Below, one piece after another: positions 4,366-54,516 of a stretch of DNA of 54,516 nt. Source of the stretch: Sulfurimonas sp. endosymbiont of Alviniconcha boucheti (lineage in GTDB: Bacteria; Campylobacterota; Campylobacteria; Campylobacterales; Sulfurimonadaceae); the NCBI GenBank assembly GCA_021766785.1, contig JAICBP010000076.1, positions 129,225 to 183,740 on the forward strand, in the 5' to 3' direction. The position numbers and the translations under genes were made by a program. Under the pieces are notes generated by a model. That model had not been told where the DNA came from, did not search any database, and saw only the letters and a list, made by a program, of their open reading frames with translations. The first letter of the stretch is position 1. Every line of letters starts with the position of its first letter.

Positions 4366-6618
4366 ATGAAAAAGAGCAAAAACTTTCTACAAACAATAGT
4401 TGAAAAAGATTTACAATCAGGAAAGTATAAAGAGATAATAACAAGATTTCCTCCTGAGCCAAATGGATTTCCACATATTGGACATGCAAAATCTATTTTT
4501 ATTAACTTTGGTATTGCTCGTGATTATAATGGTCACTGTAACCTGCGTATGGATGATACAAATCCAACAAAAGAGGATACAAAATATGTTGAAGCACTCA
4601 AAGATGCTGTTCTTTGGTTAGGATATAGGTGGGAAGGGAATATCCATTTTACTTCTGATTATTTTACTCAAATTCATGAATATGCTATAAAACTCATTAC
4701 AATGGGTAAAGCTTATGTTGATAGTGTTGATGAAGAGAAAATGAGAGAGCTTCGTGGAACTGTTACAGAAGCTGGTAAACGCAGTAAGTATGCAAAAAGA
4801 ACTGTAGCAGAGAACTTAGATATGTTTGAGCGCATGAGAAAGGGTGAGTTTAAAGATGGAGAACATGTTCTTCGTGCAAAGATAGATATGTCTTCTGCAA
4901 ATATGAAAATGCGTGATCCTCTTATGTATCGTATACGTCATGCTGAGCATTTTAGAACTGGAAATAAGTGGTGTATCTACCCTATGTATGATTTTGCACA
5001 CTCTCTTTCAGACTATATAGAAGGAGTCTCCCACTCTATCTGTACCTTAGAGTTTGAAAACAATCGTGATATTTACAACTGGGTACTTGATACATTAGAC
5101 TTAACTCCTCCTCGCCCCTACCAACATGAGTTTGCGAGACTAGGTATAAACTATACAGTTATGAGTAAACGTAAACTCTTAGAGTTAGTCAAAGGGAAGT
5201 ATGTTAATGGATGGGATGATCCGCGTTTACCAACTATTGCAGGATTACGAAGAAAAGGTTATACTCCTGAGTCTATAGTTACTTTTTGTGATAAAGTTGG
5301 TATTGCAAAAGCAAACTCTATGGTTGATATTGCTCAACTAGAGTTTACTATAAGAGCTGATCTAAACACTAAAGTACCTCGTGTTATGTGTGTACTTAAT
5401 CCATTAAAAATAACGTTGGTAAATTACAGGGAAAAAGGAGAAAAACTTGATGCCTCTTACTATCCTGATGATGTGCCCAAAAAAGGATCACGTGCACTCC
5501 CTTTTTCTCGTGAAATTTATATTGAACGTGATGATTTTGAAGAGAATCCTCCCAAGGGCTATTTTCGTCTTACACCTGAGCAACCAGTAAGACTCAAACA
5601 TGGGTATATTATTGCTTGTAAAGAGATTATCAAAGATATTAATGGTTGTATCACAGAAATAAAAGCGGAGTATTACCCTACTTCTCAAAGTGGATCAGAT
5701 AGTAGTGGCATTAAAGTCAAAAGTGCTATCCACTGGGTAAGTGCTGATACGGCAAAAAGAGTAGAAGTGAGACTATACGATAGACTTTACTCCTCTGAAA
5801 TTCCAGAGAGTATAGAAGATCTCAACCCTAACTCGCTAAAAGTTATAACAGATGCACTTATTGAACCTGCTGTCGTCAATGAAAAACCTGATGAAAGATT
5901 TCAGTTTGAGAGACAAGGATACTTCTATGCTGATCCAATTGACTATACAGATGAAAAACCAGTTTATAATAAAATAGTAGGTCTTAAAGATTCTTGGGGT
6001 AAAAAGACAAAAGTTACACTACAAAAATCACAGACAAAAGAGAAAAAAGAGCAGATTGATGGTGAGGTTGTAGCTATGACTCCAGAACAAGAGAAGCTTT
6101 TTGATAGATACAAAAAAGAGTTGAAGCTCAATAGTGAGATTGCGAATACTCTTGCACGTGATGCAGATCTTTCAGCTTTTTTTGAGATGGCATTAAAAGT
6201 ACTGTATAGTCCTATTAACCTAGCAAATATCATTACAAATGAAGTAGCACGTGAGATAAAACAGAGTTCAAAGGATAGTCTCAAGTTTACCCCTAATCAG
6301 ATAGCAGAGCTTATTGAAATGGTGGATAAAGCTACTATTTCAAATAAAATTGCAAAACAAGTTTTTGAAGAGATGGTAACTTCTGGAGCTAATCCAAAAG
6401 AGATAGTAGAGAAAAGAGGACTTTTACAGATAAGTGACCCTGACCATATCGGAAGAGTTATCGATGAAGTTATTGAAAAAAACTATGAGAATCTTGAGAA
6501 ATTTAGAGCTGGAAATAAAAAACTCTTAGGCTTCTTCGTTGGGCAGGTACTTAAAGCTACAGGTGGTAAAGCTAACCCAAAACTAGTCAACCAACTTCTA
6601 GTACAAAAGTTAGGATAA
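4366..6618 (+). CDS. glnS: Glutaminyl-tRNA synthetase with C-terminal YqeY/GatB-like tail
   Basis: A class I synthetase that charges tRNA-Gln with glutamine. The HIGH motif is intact (FPHIGH, residues 37-40) and the KMSKS loop is VMSKR (265-269). The chosen ATG at 4366 has AAAGG ten bases upstream; an in-frame ATG at 4345 lacks a ribosome site. The protein has 750 residues against about 550 for E. coli GlnRS. The extra part from about residue 565 to the end is a helical tail ending in segments such as GFFVGQVLKATGGKANP that match the YqeY/GatB C-terminal tRNA-binding domain, as described for Deinococcus GlnRS. Direct GlnRS is unusual in this phylum, whose better-known members make Gln-tRNA with GatCAB. 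The degenerate GluRS gene follows after 12 bases. Confidence 0.95.
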   Translation: MKKSKNFLQTIVEKDLQSGKYKEIITRFPPEPNGFPHIGHAKSIFINFGIARDYNGHCNLRMDDTNPTKEDTKYVEALKDAVLWLGYRWEGNIHFTSDYFTQIHEYAIKLITMGKAYVDSVDEEKMRELRGTVTEAGKRSKYAKRTVAENLDMFERMRKGEFKDGEHVLRAKIDMSSANMKMRDPLMYRIRHAEHFRTGNKWCIYPMYDFAHSLSDYIEGVSHSICTLEFENNRDIYNWVLDTLDLTPPRPYQHEFARLGINYTVMSKRKLLELVKGKYVNGWDDPRLPTIAGLRRKGYTPESIVTFCDKVGIAKANSMVDIAQLEFTIRADLNTKVPRVMCVLNPLKITLVNYREKGEKLDASYYPDDVPKKGSRALPFSREIYIERDDFEENPPKGYFRLTPEQPVRLKHGYIIACKEIIKDINGCITEIKAEYYPTSQSGSDSSGIKVKSAIHWVSADTAKRVEVRLYDRLYSSEIPESIEDLNPNSLKVITDALIEPAVVNEKPDERFQFERQGYFYADPIDYTDEKPVYNKIVGLKDSWGKKTKVTLQKSQTKEKKEQIDGEVVAMTPEQEKLFDRYKKELKLNSEIANTLARDADLSAFFEMALKVLYSPINLANIITNEVAREIKQSSKDSLKFTPNQIAELIEMVDKATISNKIAKQVFEEMVTSGANPKEIVEKRGLLQISDPDHIGRVIDEVIEKNYENLEKFRAGNKKLLGFFVGQVLKATGGKANPKLVNQLLVQKLG

Positions 6619-6630
6619 AAGGGATTTTTT

Positions 6631-7905
6631 ATGTTAAGATTTGCCATTAGCCCTACAAGTGACTTGAAACTAGATACCCTGCGTATCGCTCTATATAACT
6701 ATATAGTTGCGAAACAACGGGGAGAAGATTTTATTGTTCGTATTGAAGATATGGAGAAAGAGAGAGTTATTGATGGGATGGATGATGAGATTTTAGATTT
6801 ACTTGCTCTTTTTGGTGTGCAGTTTTCTCAAGTTATTCATCAGAGCCAAAATGTACGTTTTCATTCAGCTATGGCACTGCAACTTGTGCATGAGAGAAAA
6901 GCATTTAGCTGTTTCTGTTCAGATAACTGGTTAGAGAACAAACGCGAAGAGGCAGAACAAGCAGGTAGAGTCTATAGTTATGATGATGCTTGTAGAAACC
7001 TCCCTGTAGAGCTTATTATAGATAATACAAATCCTTTTAGGATTAGAGTTGTAAGACCTGATGCCGATATTATTATTCATGATAAAATTTTAGGTGATAA
7101 AAAGTTTATACCAAATGCGGTAGATAGTTTTGTCATTTTAAACCAAGACAAAACACCGACATATAACTTCTCTGTAGCTATAGATGATATGTTAAGTGAT
7201 ATCTCTCTTATTATTCGCTCTGAAGAGTTTATAGAAGAAACGCCAAAACAAGAGTATATACGATCAGCACTTAAGTATAAAAAGCAAGTGGAGTATGCTC
7301 ATCTCCCTTTAATGAATAATCTTGATAGTGCACCAAGTGTTAAAGCATTACTTAAAGAGGGTTTTCTTCCTAATGCTATTTTAAATTATTTAGTATCAAT
7401 CGGAAATAAAGTACCTCAAGAGATATTTACATTACAAGAAGCTATTGGCTTTTTAGACTTAGAGAGAGTATCAAAGACTCCAGTAAATTTCGATATAAAT
7501 GTATTAAAACAAGTCAATAGAGCTCATCTTAAAGCACTAGATACAAAAGAACTTTCACGTTTCGTCGGTTTTGCTGATGCAGAGATAGGTGCATTAGCTC
7601 GCATTTACCTAGATGAAGTTACAACTACAAAAGAGCTAAAGGCTAAAATAGCTTCCATATTTGCAGAGCGAAATATTCCTAAAGCATTTGCTAAGGAGTG
7701 TAGTATATTAATTAATATTATTACAAATACACCCTACTTTGAGAAGTATGATGCATTTAAAAAAGAGACTCTTAAAGCATCTGGCTTAGAGAGTGAAAGA
7801 TATGAGATTGCCCTGCGTTTACTACTAACAAACGCGACAGAGGGTCCAGATATTGCTGAAATATATCAGCACATTAAAAATTACATTGGGGAGATTGTAA
7901 AATAA
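6631..7905 (+). CDS. GluRS-like protein lacking HIGH and KMSKS motifs (probably inactive paralogue)
   Basis: 424 residues, full length for a bacterial glutamyl-tRNA synthetase and similar to it throughout (RFAISPT start, RIED, CFCSD, TPTYNFSVAIDDM, FLPNAILNYL, NYIGEIVK end). However, the positions of the ATP-binding HIGH motif read K-L-D-T (residues 13-16). The usual GEDH-type segment reads R-S-E-E-F (196-200). The lysine-rich GKKMSKR loop is missing, replaced by a short NNLDSAPSVK (229-238). A class I synthetase without these motifs should not activate glutamate. The frame is intact and sits between glnS and yggT with tight spacing, so selection seems to keep the protein. It may descend from the tRNA-Gln-specific GluRS2 made redundant by GlnRS. 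A tRNA-binding or regulatory role is possible but not shown. Confidence 0.88.
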   Translation: MLRFAISPTSDLKLDTLRIALYNYIVAKQRGEDFIVRIEDMEKERVIDGMDDEILDLLALFGVQFSQVIHQSQNVRFHSAMALQLVHERKAFSCFCSDNWLENKREEAEQAGRVYSYDDACRNLPVELIIDNTNPFRIRVVRPDADIIIHDKILGDKKFIPNAVDSFVILNQDKTPTYNFSVAIDDMLSDISLIIRSEEFIEETPKQEYIRSALKYKKQVEYAHLPLMNNLDSAPSVKALLKEGFLPNAILNYLVSIGNKVPQEIFTLQEAIGFLDLERVSKTPVNFDINVLKQVNRAHLKALDTKELSRFVGFADAEIGALARIYLDEVTTTKELKAKIASIFAERNIPKAFAKECSILINIITNTPYFEKYDAFKKETLKASGLESERYEIALRLLLTNATEGPDIAEIYQHIKNYIGEIVK

Positions 7906-52710: not shown

Positions 52711-52727
52711 TTTTACTAGTGTATCTA

Positions 52728-52799
52728 TTCCCATAGAGAACAATGGGAAGAAGAGAAACTGCTAGCAACTTTTCTCGTGACTAAGCTCTAGCTTAGTCA
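52728..52799. other. Three consecutive hairpins between recO and the DUF1566 gene
   Basis: TTCCCAT (52728-52734) pairs with ATGGGAA (52743-52749). GAGAAA (52753-52758) pairs with TTTCTC (52771-52776). TGACTAAGCT (52778-52787) pairs with AGCTTAGTCA (52790-52799), ten bases each side of a two-base centre. None has a T-run right after it, so they are not standard terminators, though the first may end recO transcripts. The rest of this 159-base gap shows only the hairpin at 52846-52859. Confidence 0.55.
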
Positions 52800-52845
52800 T
52801 GCATATCTCTTATTTTTGGCTTTATTTTGTTGTTGTAGTTTTCTA

Positions 52846-52859
52846 GGAGCTAATGCTCC
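52846..52859 (-). other. GGAGC-ATTA-GCTCC hairpin after variable region A
   Basis: A five-base stem with a four-base loop, ten bases after the DUF1566 stop codon. It is matched at the same distance after the second DUF1566 gene (53464-53477), with near-identical flanks. This resembles the hairpin that follows the initiation-of-mutagenic-homing site in DGR target genes. Confidence 0.55.
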
Positions 52860-52869
52860 AAAAGTTAAA

Positions 52870-53274
52870 TCATCTAACACACCTAACATCAGAGTTATTG
52901 CCCTTAGCGGAAGAGTCTACACGGCCATAATGGAAGAAAACAACCCAAGCATAGGACTTATTTTTCTCATAGCTGGTAGAAGACCAATAGTAGTTAAAGC
53001 TAGTATTCTCAAATCCTACGGCGATAGCTGGATTTACTTTAGACCTATCAACTATGCTTTTAAGCTCATTTATGTTTGGGAGTCTCCAGTCACTATATCC
53101 ATCTAACTCTAAGGCTTCACATCTATCTATAGCAGCCTGCCAAGTTATAGATGAACCTACTGCATCATCTTGCCACTCTAACTTTGAGAGACTATCTTTT
53201 ACTATGTTTCCTGTCTTTGTAAAGTCTGCTTGTAGCAGACTAAGCCCTATTATAATCAAAAGGATTATTTTCAT
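52870..53274 (-). CDS. Secreted DUF1566 (Lcl C-terminal) protein, candidate DGR target A
   Basis: 134 residues. A signal peptide (MKIILLIIIGLSLLQA, cut before DFTK) leads directly into a DUF1566 domain: LEWQDD, TWQAAIDRCEAL, GYSDWRLPNINELKSIVD (59-76), NYYWSSTSYE (94-103), AWVVFFHYG (109-117) and the terminal VRCVR. DUF1566 has the C-type-lectin/FGE-like ligand fold found in many DGR variable proteins, where the last strands display variable residues. The ATG has AGGAG upstream, 36 bases after the Avd-like fragment. It lacks the DGQ tail present in copy B (nine bases missing). Secretion and ligand binding are inferred; the ligand is unknown. Confidence 0.85.
   Translation of the reverse strand: MKIILLIIIGLSLLQADFTKTGNIVKDSLSKLEWQDDAVGSSITWQAAIDRCEALELDGYSDWRLPNINELKSIVDRSKVNPAIAVGFENTSFNYYWSSTSYEKNKSYAWVVFFHYGRVDSSAKGNNSDVRCVR
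52888..52965 (-). other. Candidate variable region A (26 codons)
   Basis: Bounded by a 20-base block identical to copy B (52976-52995) on the 5' side and by the shared GTTAGGTGTGTTAGA on the 3' side. Within it, codons after Ala-Trp differ from copy B at 20 of 38 first/second positions but only 6 of 19 third positions (hand count). That is the reverse of ordinary drift under purifying selection and fits adenine-directed replacement of AAC/AAT-type template codons. Confidence 0.5.
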
Positions 53275-53310
53275 TTAAAACTCCTATGTTTTTTTGTAAA
53301 TTGTAGCTAT

Positions 53311-53442
53311 TTAAGTGCTGTATATAAGACTCAAATGAAGCTTTATGCCTTTTTTATACTTGTCAAAACTTTTAACAATTGTCTCTATGTAAACACAAAG
53401 TTCTAATGCCGATCGAAATATAGGATAGTCTTGACTTGCCAT
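53311..53442 (-). pseudogene. avd: Truncated Avd-like gene (DGR accessory protein fragment)
   Basis: A 43-codon ORF with a strong GGAGG four bases before its ATG at 53442, starting 21 bases after hairpin B. The product begins MASQDYPIFRSALELCVYIE and continues TIVKSFDKYKK before a divergent end and a stop. The opening M-A-S-x-D-Y-P-I-F and amphipathic helix resemble the first helix of Avd / four-helix-bundle proteins encoded next to DGR variable regions, which normally run to about 110-130 residues. Three quarters of the protein is missing, so it is probably a remnant. It could instead be a genuine short peptide; identity rests on about 30 residues. Confidence 0.5.
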
Positions 53443-53463
53443 ATATCCTCCAAAATTTTTCTA

Positions 53464-53477
53464 GGAGCTAACGCTCC
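53464..53477 (-). other. GGAGC-GTTA-GCTCC hairpin after variable region B
   Basis: Same stem as the copy at 52846-52859, with a GTTA loop. It lies ten bases after the stop of the large DUF1566 protein, inside a noncoding block (TTTGACTTTTGGAGC onward) shared with copy A to TAGAAAA. Conservation outside coding sequence argues for a DNA- or RNA-level role. Confidence 0.55.
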
Positions 53478-53487
53478 AAAAGTCAAA

Positions 53488-54516
53488 TCACTGTCCATCT
53501 CTAACACACCTAACATAACCATTAGCGCGTTTAACGTTGCGACCCACATCGCCACGGTTGAAGTTAACAATCCAAGCACGGTACTTTTCCTCCTCATAGC
53601 TAGTAGAAGACCAATAGTAGTTAGAGCTAACATTTTTAAAATAAGCAGTATCTATCGCTAGAGTATATTTGCCATAATCAATTATACCCTCTAACTCTGT
53701 AGATGTAGGAAGTCTCCAGTCTGTGTAACCTCCAAGAGTTAAGTCACTACAATATGTTGCAGCTGTGTCACCACTTGTGTTGTAACATACAGGTGAGTTT
53801 TTATAATTTGAGCATGTATTATAGTTCGCATTGGTAAGCCATGTTTTTGTTACACTAGCTACAGCCGCATTATCTTGCCACATAAGTTCTGTAAGTTCAT
53901 CTGTTACGATGTCTGATGCTCTTGTGTATTGAGGAGTTAACCCTTTTTGGTAGTAACCATCATCTTTGAGAGAGCCATCTGTCACTTCATTTCCACTTGC
54001 ATCATAAGACTTTGTTTGTCCTGTTTTTTTGGTGGCAGTTTGTATGGCGTTTATAGTTATGTTTATAGTTGCTATAACCGAATCAACACTACCATCATTT
54101 ACTTTATATGTAAAACTGTCTGTACCGCTATAGTTTTCATTTGGAGTATAAAGTAAATTTGGAGCTGTACCACTTAGTGTTCCATGTGATGGATTCTCAA
54201 CTACTATGTATGTTAGAGTATCTCCATCTTCATCCTCACCTACTAGAGTAATATTAAAATTTTTATCTTCATCAGTTACAAGAGTAAGAGCTCTAGCCGT
54301 TGGTATTTTATTGGGGTTGGCAGTTTGTATGGCGTTTATAGTTATGTTTATAGTTGCTATAACCGAATCAACACTACCATCATTTACTTTATATGTAAAA
54401 CTGTCTGTACCGCTATAGTTTTCATTTGGAGTATAAAGTAAATTTGGAGCTGTACCACTTAGTGTTCCATGTGATGGATTCTCAACTACTATGTATGTTA
54501 GAGTATCTCCATCTTC
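53488..54516 (-). CDS. Large Big_9-repeat adhesin-like protein with C-terminal DUF1566 domain, candidate DGR target B (partial)
   Basis: The frame is open from the right window edge to the TGA at 53488, showing the last 342 residues. From the edge: two Ig-like/cadherin-like units of about 95 residues of the PF17963 (Big_9) kind (VTDEDKNFNITL, DEDGDTLTYIVVENPSHG, LLYTPNENYSGTDSFTYKVN). Then a linker TATKKTGQTKSYDASGNEV, then a DUF1566 domain (ELMWQDNAA, TYCSDLTLGGYTDWRLPTST, NYYWSSTSYEEE, AWIVNFNRG, VRCVRDGQ-stop). Extra cysteines lie in NTCSNYKNSPVCYN. Such proteins are long surface or secreted binders. The start and any secretion signal are outside the window. Confidence 0.85.
   Translation of the reverse strand, partial: EDGDTLTYIVVENPSHGTLSGTAPNLLYTPNENYSGTDSFTYKVNDGSVDSVIATINITINAIQTANPNKIPTARALTLVTDEDKNFNITLVGEDEDGDTLTYIVVENPSHGTLSGTAPNLLYTPNENYSGTDSFTYKVNDGSVDSVIATINITINAIQTATKKTGQTKSYDASGNEVTDGSLKDDGYYQKGLTPQYTRASDIVTDELTELMWQDNAAVASVTKTWLTNANYNTCSNYKNSPVCYNTSGDTAATYCSDLTLGGYTDWRLPTSTELEGIIDYGKYTLAIDTAYFKNVSSNYYWSSTSYEEEKYRAWIVNFNRGDVGRNVKRANGYVRCVRDGQ
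53515..53592 (-). other. Candidate variable region B (26 codons)
   Basis: Same length and bounds as variable region A, preceded by the shared 20-base block at 53603-53622. It holds AAC and A-to-other type codons (AAC, CGT, GAT, GGT, CGC, GCT, TAT), as expected if an AAC/AAT-rich template were read with changes at A. It encodes the loop after AWIV of the DUF1566 fold. Confidence 0.5.
54034..54516. repeat. Tandem Big_9 repeat, 285-base period, 198 bases identical
   Basis: Bases 54034-54231 recur exactly at 54319-54516, where the window ends, so identity may continue. The period of 285 bases equals one 95-residue repeat. The intervening 54232-54318 holds the first part of the visible unit. Exact DNA identity implies recent duplication or gene conversion. 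Confidence 0.95.

Follow-up and report, generated by a model that had tools for sequence, protein, structure and literature searches.

The right-hand end of the window (the whole stretch of 54,516 nucleotides analysed here, from a Sulfurimonas sp. endosymbiont of Alviniconcha boucheti) very probably carries a decayed diversity-generating retroelement (DGR), a reading to which we give a probability of about 0.93. The locus comprises two target genes with former variable regions (VRs), while the core of the reverse transcriptase (RT) and the template (TR) have been lost. Four lines of evidence lead to this reading: stumps of avd and RT lie between the targets and are each the sole match in the genome; cassettes of the same genus have the same gene order, an RT tail that likewise overlaps the target start, and adenine-biased VR–TR mismatches; the differences between the window VRs fall on TR adenine columns; and changes in an orthologue of a sister species are concentrated in the VR at codon positions 1 and 2, a pattern absent from the VRs of G066, G067 and G132.

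Two Lcl_C targets and their variable regions

Both targets lie on the minus strand. Target 1 (52870..53274) encodes an exported Lcl_C protein of 134 aa, while target 2 (53488..54516) encodes a lipoprotein-like protein with two Big_9/cadherin-like repeats (Pfam matches) and a C-terminal Lcl_C domain. Target 2 extends ~200 bp past the window end, onto L013, and its N-terminus contains a lipobox-like LLFTGC. The matches of targets 1 and 2 to Pfam Lcl_C (PF07603, formerly DUF1566) score 113.8 and 107.3 bits against a gathering score of 34.9 (E = 7e-33 and 7e-31), and the VR is positioned at the C-terminus of each lectin-like (CLec) domain. Judged by family and export signals, both proteins most likely bind ligands at the cell surface. 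For target 1, the AlphaFold model has a mean pLDDT of 57, too low to be used in a fold search. A 2-base N gap (L013:1-2) directly follows window position 54516 and interrupts the near-identical Big_9 repeats of target 2, the number of which may therefore be mis-assembled.

The VR modules of target 1 (52873..52995, minus strand, 41 codons) and target 2 (53500..53622, minus strand) have homogenised ends and a scrambled core. As the preliminary description had reported, positions 52976-52995 and 53603-53622 carry one and the same 20-base sequence, GTAGAAGACCAATAGTAGTT, which is followed by a scrambled block of equal length; the two modules align codon for codon with no gap. At the ends of the modules, 1/30 bases differ in the first 10 codons and 0/15 in the last 5. 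In the 19 codons after Ala-Trp, differences occur at 20/38 first and second positions and at 6/19 third positions, exactly the counts given earlier. Five of the third-position differences are C/T, which adenine mutagenesis of a single AAY template could not by itself produce; they count against the DGR reading, and the preliminary description had already pointed to the third positions. Ordinary drift after RT loss would fit these differences, as would two slightly different templates. Upstream of the VRs, the same two genes differ at 31, 30 and 40 of 77 aligned codons at positions 1, 2 and 3, respectively; ordinary paralogue divergence fails to account for the VR pattern because third positions are the most diverged upstream. 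The codon-position counts of the window pair are no more than suggestive by themselves, and the weight is carried by two further tests.

The first test places the VR differences on the TR columns of same-genus relatives, which supply the A positions in place of the lost TR of the window and belong to template families that differ at several codons. With third positions excluded, the window VRs differ at 23/47 A columns vs 2/35 non-A columns (P=1.3e-5); limited to the VR core, the test gives P=4.6e-4. The second test uses the orthologue of target 1 in a sister species (G075), which is 78% identical overall. Upstream of the VR, amino-acid identity is 86% over 93 codons, with 10, 9 and 17 differences at codon positions 1, 2 and 3, whereas in the 35-codon VR identity is 51%, with 14, 14 and 8 differences, a shift to positions 1 and 2. 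The sister comparison suggested in the preliminary description thus finds variation concentrated in the VR, and together these results support a DGR origin of the two Lcl_C tips.

The matching noncoding sequence noted after the stop codons is likewise present, as a 34-nt block with a 5-bp stem and a 4-nt loop located 3′ of target 1 (52839..52872, minus strand) and a second copy, 94% identical to the first, located 3′ of target 2 (53457-53490). The loops of the two 5-bp hairpins are ATTA and GTTA, the hairpins are no better than those of shuffled sequences, and hairpins in intact cassettes vary. In phage DGRs the hairpin has a 7–10 bp GC-rich stem and a GRNA loop; Bordetella phage BPP-1 requires a hairpin after the VR, whereas that of the window is weak. 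The post-VR hairpin, weak here and inconsistent in intact cassettes, was therefore dropped as proof of a DGR target site. The would-be homing site at the VR ends, GTTAGGTGTGTTAGA, is intact in both copies.

Remnants of avd and RT between the targets

Profiles made from same-genus RTs and Avds each give one match in the genome of the window, and both matches lie between the targets, on the minus strand. The avd remnant (53350..53442) covers model positions 4-34 of 120, ~31 codons, with E=1.6e-9 in the whole-genome search; the truncated avd open reading frame, MASQDYPIFRSALELCVYIETIVKSFDKYKKG..., ends at 53311. The RT remnant (53240..53344) comprises model positions 339-372 of 372 and the stop codon (KASFESYIQHLNSYNLQKNIGVLNENNPFDYNRA*), and has no start codon; the DGR-RT profile matches these last 34 RT codons at 53243-53344 with E=8.3e-7 in the whole genome. 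The joint between the two stumps (53345..53349) is 5 bases long, compared with ~1.5 kb in the intact cassette L073, relative to which the window lacks the remainder of avd as well as the TR and the RT core.

The RT tail ends in ...NENNPFDYNRA-stop, and in another frame these bases encode the hydrophobic leader of target 1, MKIILLIIIGLSLL. Upstream of the ATG, the RT tails of several other relics contain stops or have lost homology, while the overlapping part is readable; the overlap with the target leader therefore probably explains why the RT tail has persisted.

We infer the following minus-strand order for the ancestral cassette: target 2 (VR)–avd–TR–RT–target 1 (VR). At the intact stage, RT would have reverse-transcribed the TR RNA, making errors at adenines, and both VRs would have been overwritten by the resulting cDNA. 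The outcome would have been a pair of exported Lcl_C (C-type-lectin-like) proteins that agree at the VR ends and differ in their variable residues. Loss of ~1.5 kb within the cassette would then have brought avd, at about codon 34, into contact with RT at about codon 339 and removed the TR and the catalytic part of RT, after which the targets would no longer have been rewritten and would have evolved as ordinary genes.

The assembly of the window genome is an 83-contig draft of 2.24 Mb with a completeness of 99.99% and a listed contamination of 0. The DGR-RT profile finds no full DGR RT in it, only the stump. A VR/TR pattern that accepts any base at the variable positions and 3 further mismatches recovers only the two VRs in the genome, and BLAST for the TR yields nothing beyond the VRs but a 17-base chance match. 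Six strong RVT_1 matches were rejected as DGR RT; these are LINE-type proteins of ~500–1200 aa encoded on small contigs, and several of them carry an endonuclease domain at the N-terminus. LINE-type retrotransposon proteins lie on contigs C1, C69 and C75 (L001-L006) of the bacterial bin, and these contigs are probably contaminating animal DNA despite the listed contamination of 0. With respect to the features of a functional DGR, the assembly thus has no full-length RT with an (I/V/L)GxxxSQ motif and no TR, and its Avd is truncated. The preliminary description read the paired C-termini as a DGR signature and proposed a search for RT and template as the check: the reading holds for origin, on the strength of the stumps and of the adenine-biased homologous cassettes, but a working DGR at the locus is not supported. 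The description had named a missing RT and template as refuting, and with respect to activity this is the result obtained.

These searches also bear on whether both targets could still be diversified in trans, by an RT and TR located elsewhere outside the assembly or by a cassette present in part of the population. DGR targets can sit away from the RT, the genome is a draft in many contigs, and the VR ends are intact in both copies; nevertheless, the near-complete assembly yields only the RT stump and the two VRs, and the C/T third-position differences suggest a time without rewriting, making diversification in trans improbable. Still less likely is an assembly artefact, in which an intact cassette was collapsed and avd and RT are only apparently truncated. 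VR/TR repeats can collapse, and the N gap lies inside target 2, but the joint is located inside avd and RT, where collapse of the VR/TR repeat would not place it; moreover, other genomes also contain stumps, with breakpoints that differ.

The island containing the decayed DGR is bounded on the left by a 60-bp perfect direct repeat (52774..52833, plus strand), the partner of which lies beyond the window (L013:343-402). The 33-bp core of this repeat has only two copies in the genome with up to 3 mismatches allowed, and the repeats are possibly an insertion footprint. The repeat contains a near-perfect palindrome, TGACTAAGCTCTAGCTTAGTCA. No comparable bounding repeat is present in the intact cassettes L074 and L075, and flanking direct repeats were therefore rejected as a general cassette feature. 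In close relatives that have both neighbours on one locus, the methyltransferase and the RecO-like gene enclose no DGR at the observed distances. In the closest relative (G101, RecO 90% identical), the DGR site is occupied by an endonuclease-III-like open reading frame (L090:869-1486) syntenic with window 52711-54516; this gene was not found in the window genome in a search run without a positive control.

Intact, decayed and frozen cassettes in the genus

We searched 135 same-genus genomes, including that of the window, for Lcl_C and RVT_1. Lcl_C paralogues are present in 85/135 genomes, and Lcl_C lies side by side with RVT_1 and an intact RT in G018, G043, G044 and G047; a fifth case, G123, is cut by a contig end. 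The order of the intact cassettes is target–avd–TR–RT–target, and the start of the second target lies within the 3′-terminal part of the RT gene; the contig of G043 ends before the expected first target. VR–TR mismatches concentrate on adenines: the two VRs have 22 and 24 adenine changes and 0/72 non-adenine changes in L073, 20 and 23 adenine changes and 0/72 non-adenine changes in L074, and 11 and 14 adenine changes with 0 and 1 of 81 non-adenine changes in L075. The sole case of its kind is L076 (G043), in which a VR (1276-1398) has 8 non-adenine differences from the TR beside a full-length RT; the VR may be older, may stem from a foreign template or may mark the onset of decay. We infer that the homologous cassettes are active.

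The RT of these relatives contains the motif LPIGNLTSQ and shares 29% identity with BPP-1 Brt, while their Avd matches Pfam bAvd and NCBIfam DivGenRetAVD below the curated cut-offs. Viral contigs contain only distant RTs (48% identity at best), so the cassettes show no sign of an origin from the sampled phages. A scan of named genomes identified DGRs in Candidatus Sulfurimonas ponti, other Sulfurimonas, Sulfurovum, an Arcobacter MAG and other Campylobacterales, and the adenine pattern recurs in most of them.

Relic loci number 15 in 12/135 genomes, against four intact cassettes and the one cut by a contig end, a ratio that is approximate since some relics (e.g. G035) touch contig ends. They are found in the window, in G020, G029, G035, G046, G049, G056, G067, G075 and G132, twice in G059 and three times in G097; the shortest remnants (G067, G075 and G132:C6) rest on short tails in the overlapping frame. 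Because breakpoints differ, several of the losses are probably independent. The relics show stages of decay: an RT core replaced with the TR intact (G046), stumps only (the window), and a frozen VR (G066, G067 and G132). The G046 locus (L084) is a recently killed DGR; its TR is intact, all VR–TR mismatches (23/23) are adenine changes, with 0/80 non-adenine, and a GIY-YIG-like open reading frame replaces the RT core. This reading frame (L084, G046:C6, 1301-1806) has short repeats at both sides. In L080 (G075, 6254-6828) and L165 (G097:C265, 1360-1897), a small open reading frame whose product is similar to four-helix-bundle proteins (23S rRNA intervening sequence) stands in place of the DGR core, flanked by GAGAATGGAAAATGG-type repeats.

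The VR common to G066 (L038), G067 (L024) and G132 (L177) is frozen. Its sequence, DGAWVVDFYDG...SNYKGTTLFVRCVR, is conserved in three species whose genes have diverged elsewhere (89–94% identity in the VR vs 70–78% upstream), and third-position changes dominate. No RT core was found in G066, G067 or G132, and adenine-column enrichment is absent in the two tested pairs of these VRs. G067 and G132 have both flanks in common, and the VR was therefore inherited. A locus that never had a DGR, with diversifying selection or gene conversion acting between Lcl_C paralogues, is the least probable explanation of the window, for although such paralogues are common and a ligand-binding loop can evolve fast, it is contradicted by the avd and RT stumps between the genes, by the position of the differences on TR adenine columns, and by the opposite pattern of this RT-core-less trio, in which the protein is conserved and third positions change.

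Loss of the RT core with retention of both diversified targets could, as a tentative proposal that we hold at somewhat less than even odds, be a recurrent and possibly selected end state of Sulfurimonas DGRs, in which a target is diversified, a good variant is fixed and the mutator is discarded, and in which RT fossils survive because their last codons double as target leader codons.

Comparison with known systems

The closest counterparts of the decayed DGR are the cassettes of Candidatus Sulfurimonas ponti (JACNLH010000020.1; L181/L073), L074, L075 and L076, which have the same order, Lcl_C targets, homologous avd and RT, and an RT tail over the target start codon; they keep full avd, TR and RT, whereas the window keeps ~31 avd codons and 34 RT codons. 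The BPP-1 DGR (brt, TR, mtd) is an element of the same kind with the TR/VR adenine pattern, but it is phage-borne with one target, whereas the locus in the window lies on the chromosome, has two targets and is inactive. DUF1566 has been reported as the Pfam domain most often found in DGR targets (PMC6642488). The Lcl_C protein that has been studied, Lcl of Legionella, is an adhesin of the cell surface whose trimeric head is C-type-lectin-like (PMC11162425), and its C-terminal domain (PDB 8Q4E, 8QK8), of the same family as the window targets, binds glycosaminoglycans; the window targets differ in having no collagen-like stalk, and the direct sequence match is weak (E=0.007). The window targets probably now serve as fixed adhesins.

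DGRs are usually found via their RT, and dead DGRs therefore escape standard searches. The DiGReF survey of 2012 noted truncated RTs and suggested that, as DGR activity fades, a target that is already well adapted may become fixed (PMC3521204). Compared with those degenerate DGRs, the window has lost both RT core and TR and would be missed by an RT-based search, and in the present set losses recur within one genus, with frozen VRs. The earlier remark that DGRs are little described in this phylum is fair: a text search of the literature retrieved no paper on a Sulfurimonas or Sulfurovum DGR, although the 2012 survey tabulates Delta/Epsilonproteobacteria hits (PMC3521204).

Taken singly, the window locus adds one degenerate example to a known kind of element; what makes it interesting is that the loss is repeated, that VRs are frozen and that a fossil persists in the overlapping frame. 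DGRs with the adenine pattern are hereby documented in chemosynthetic Campylobacterota, and among the genomes searched, recognisable dead DGRs outnumber intact ones in the genus. Relics at different stages make the fate of DGR-diversified genes directly testable, where the earlier survey could only suggest target fixation (PMC3521204).
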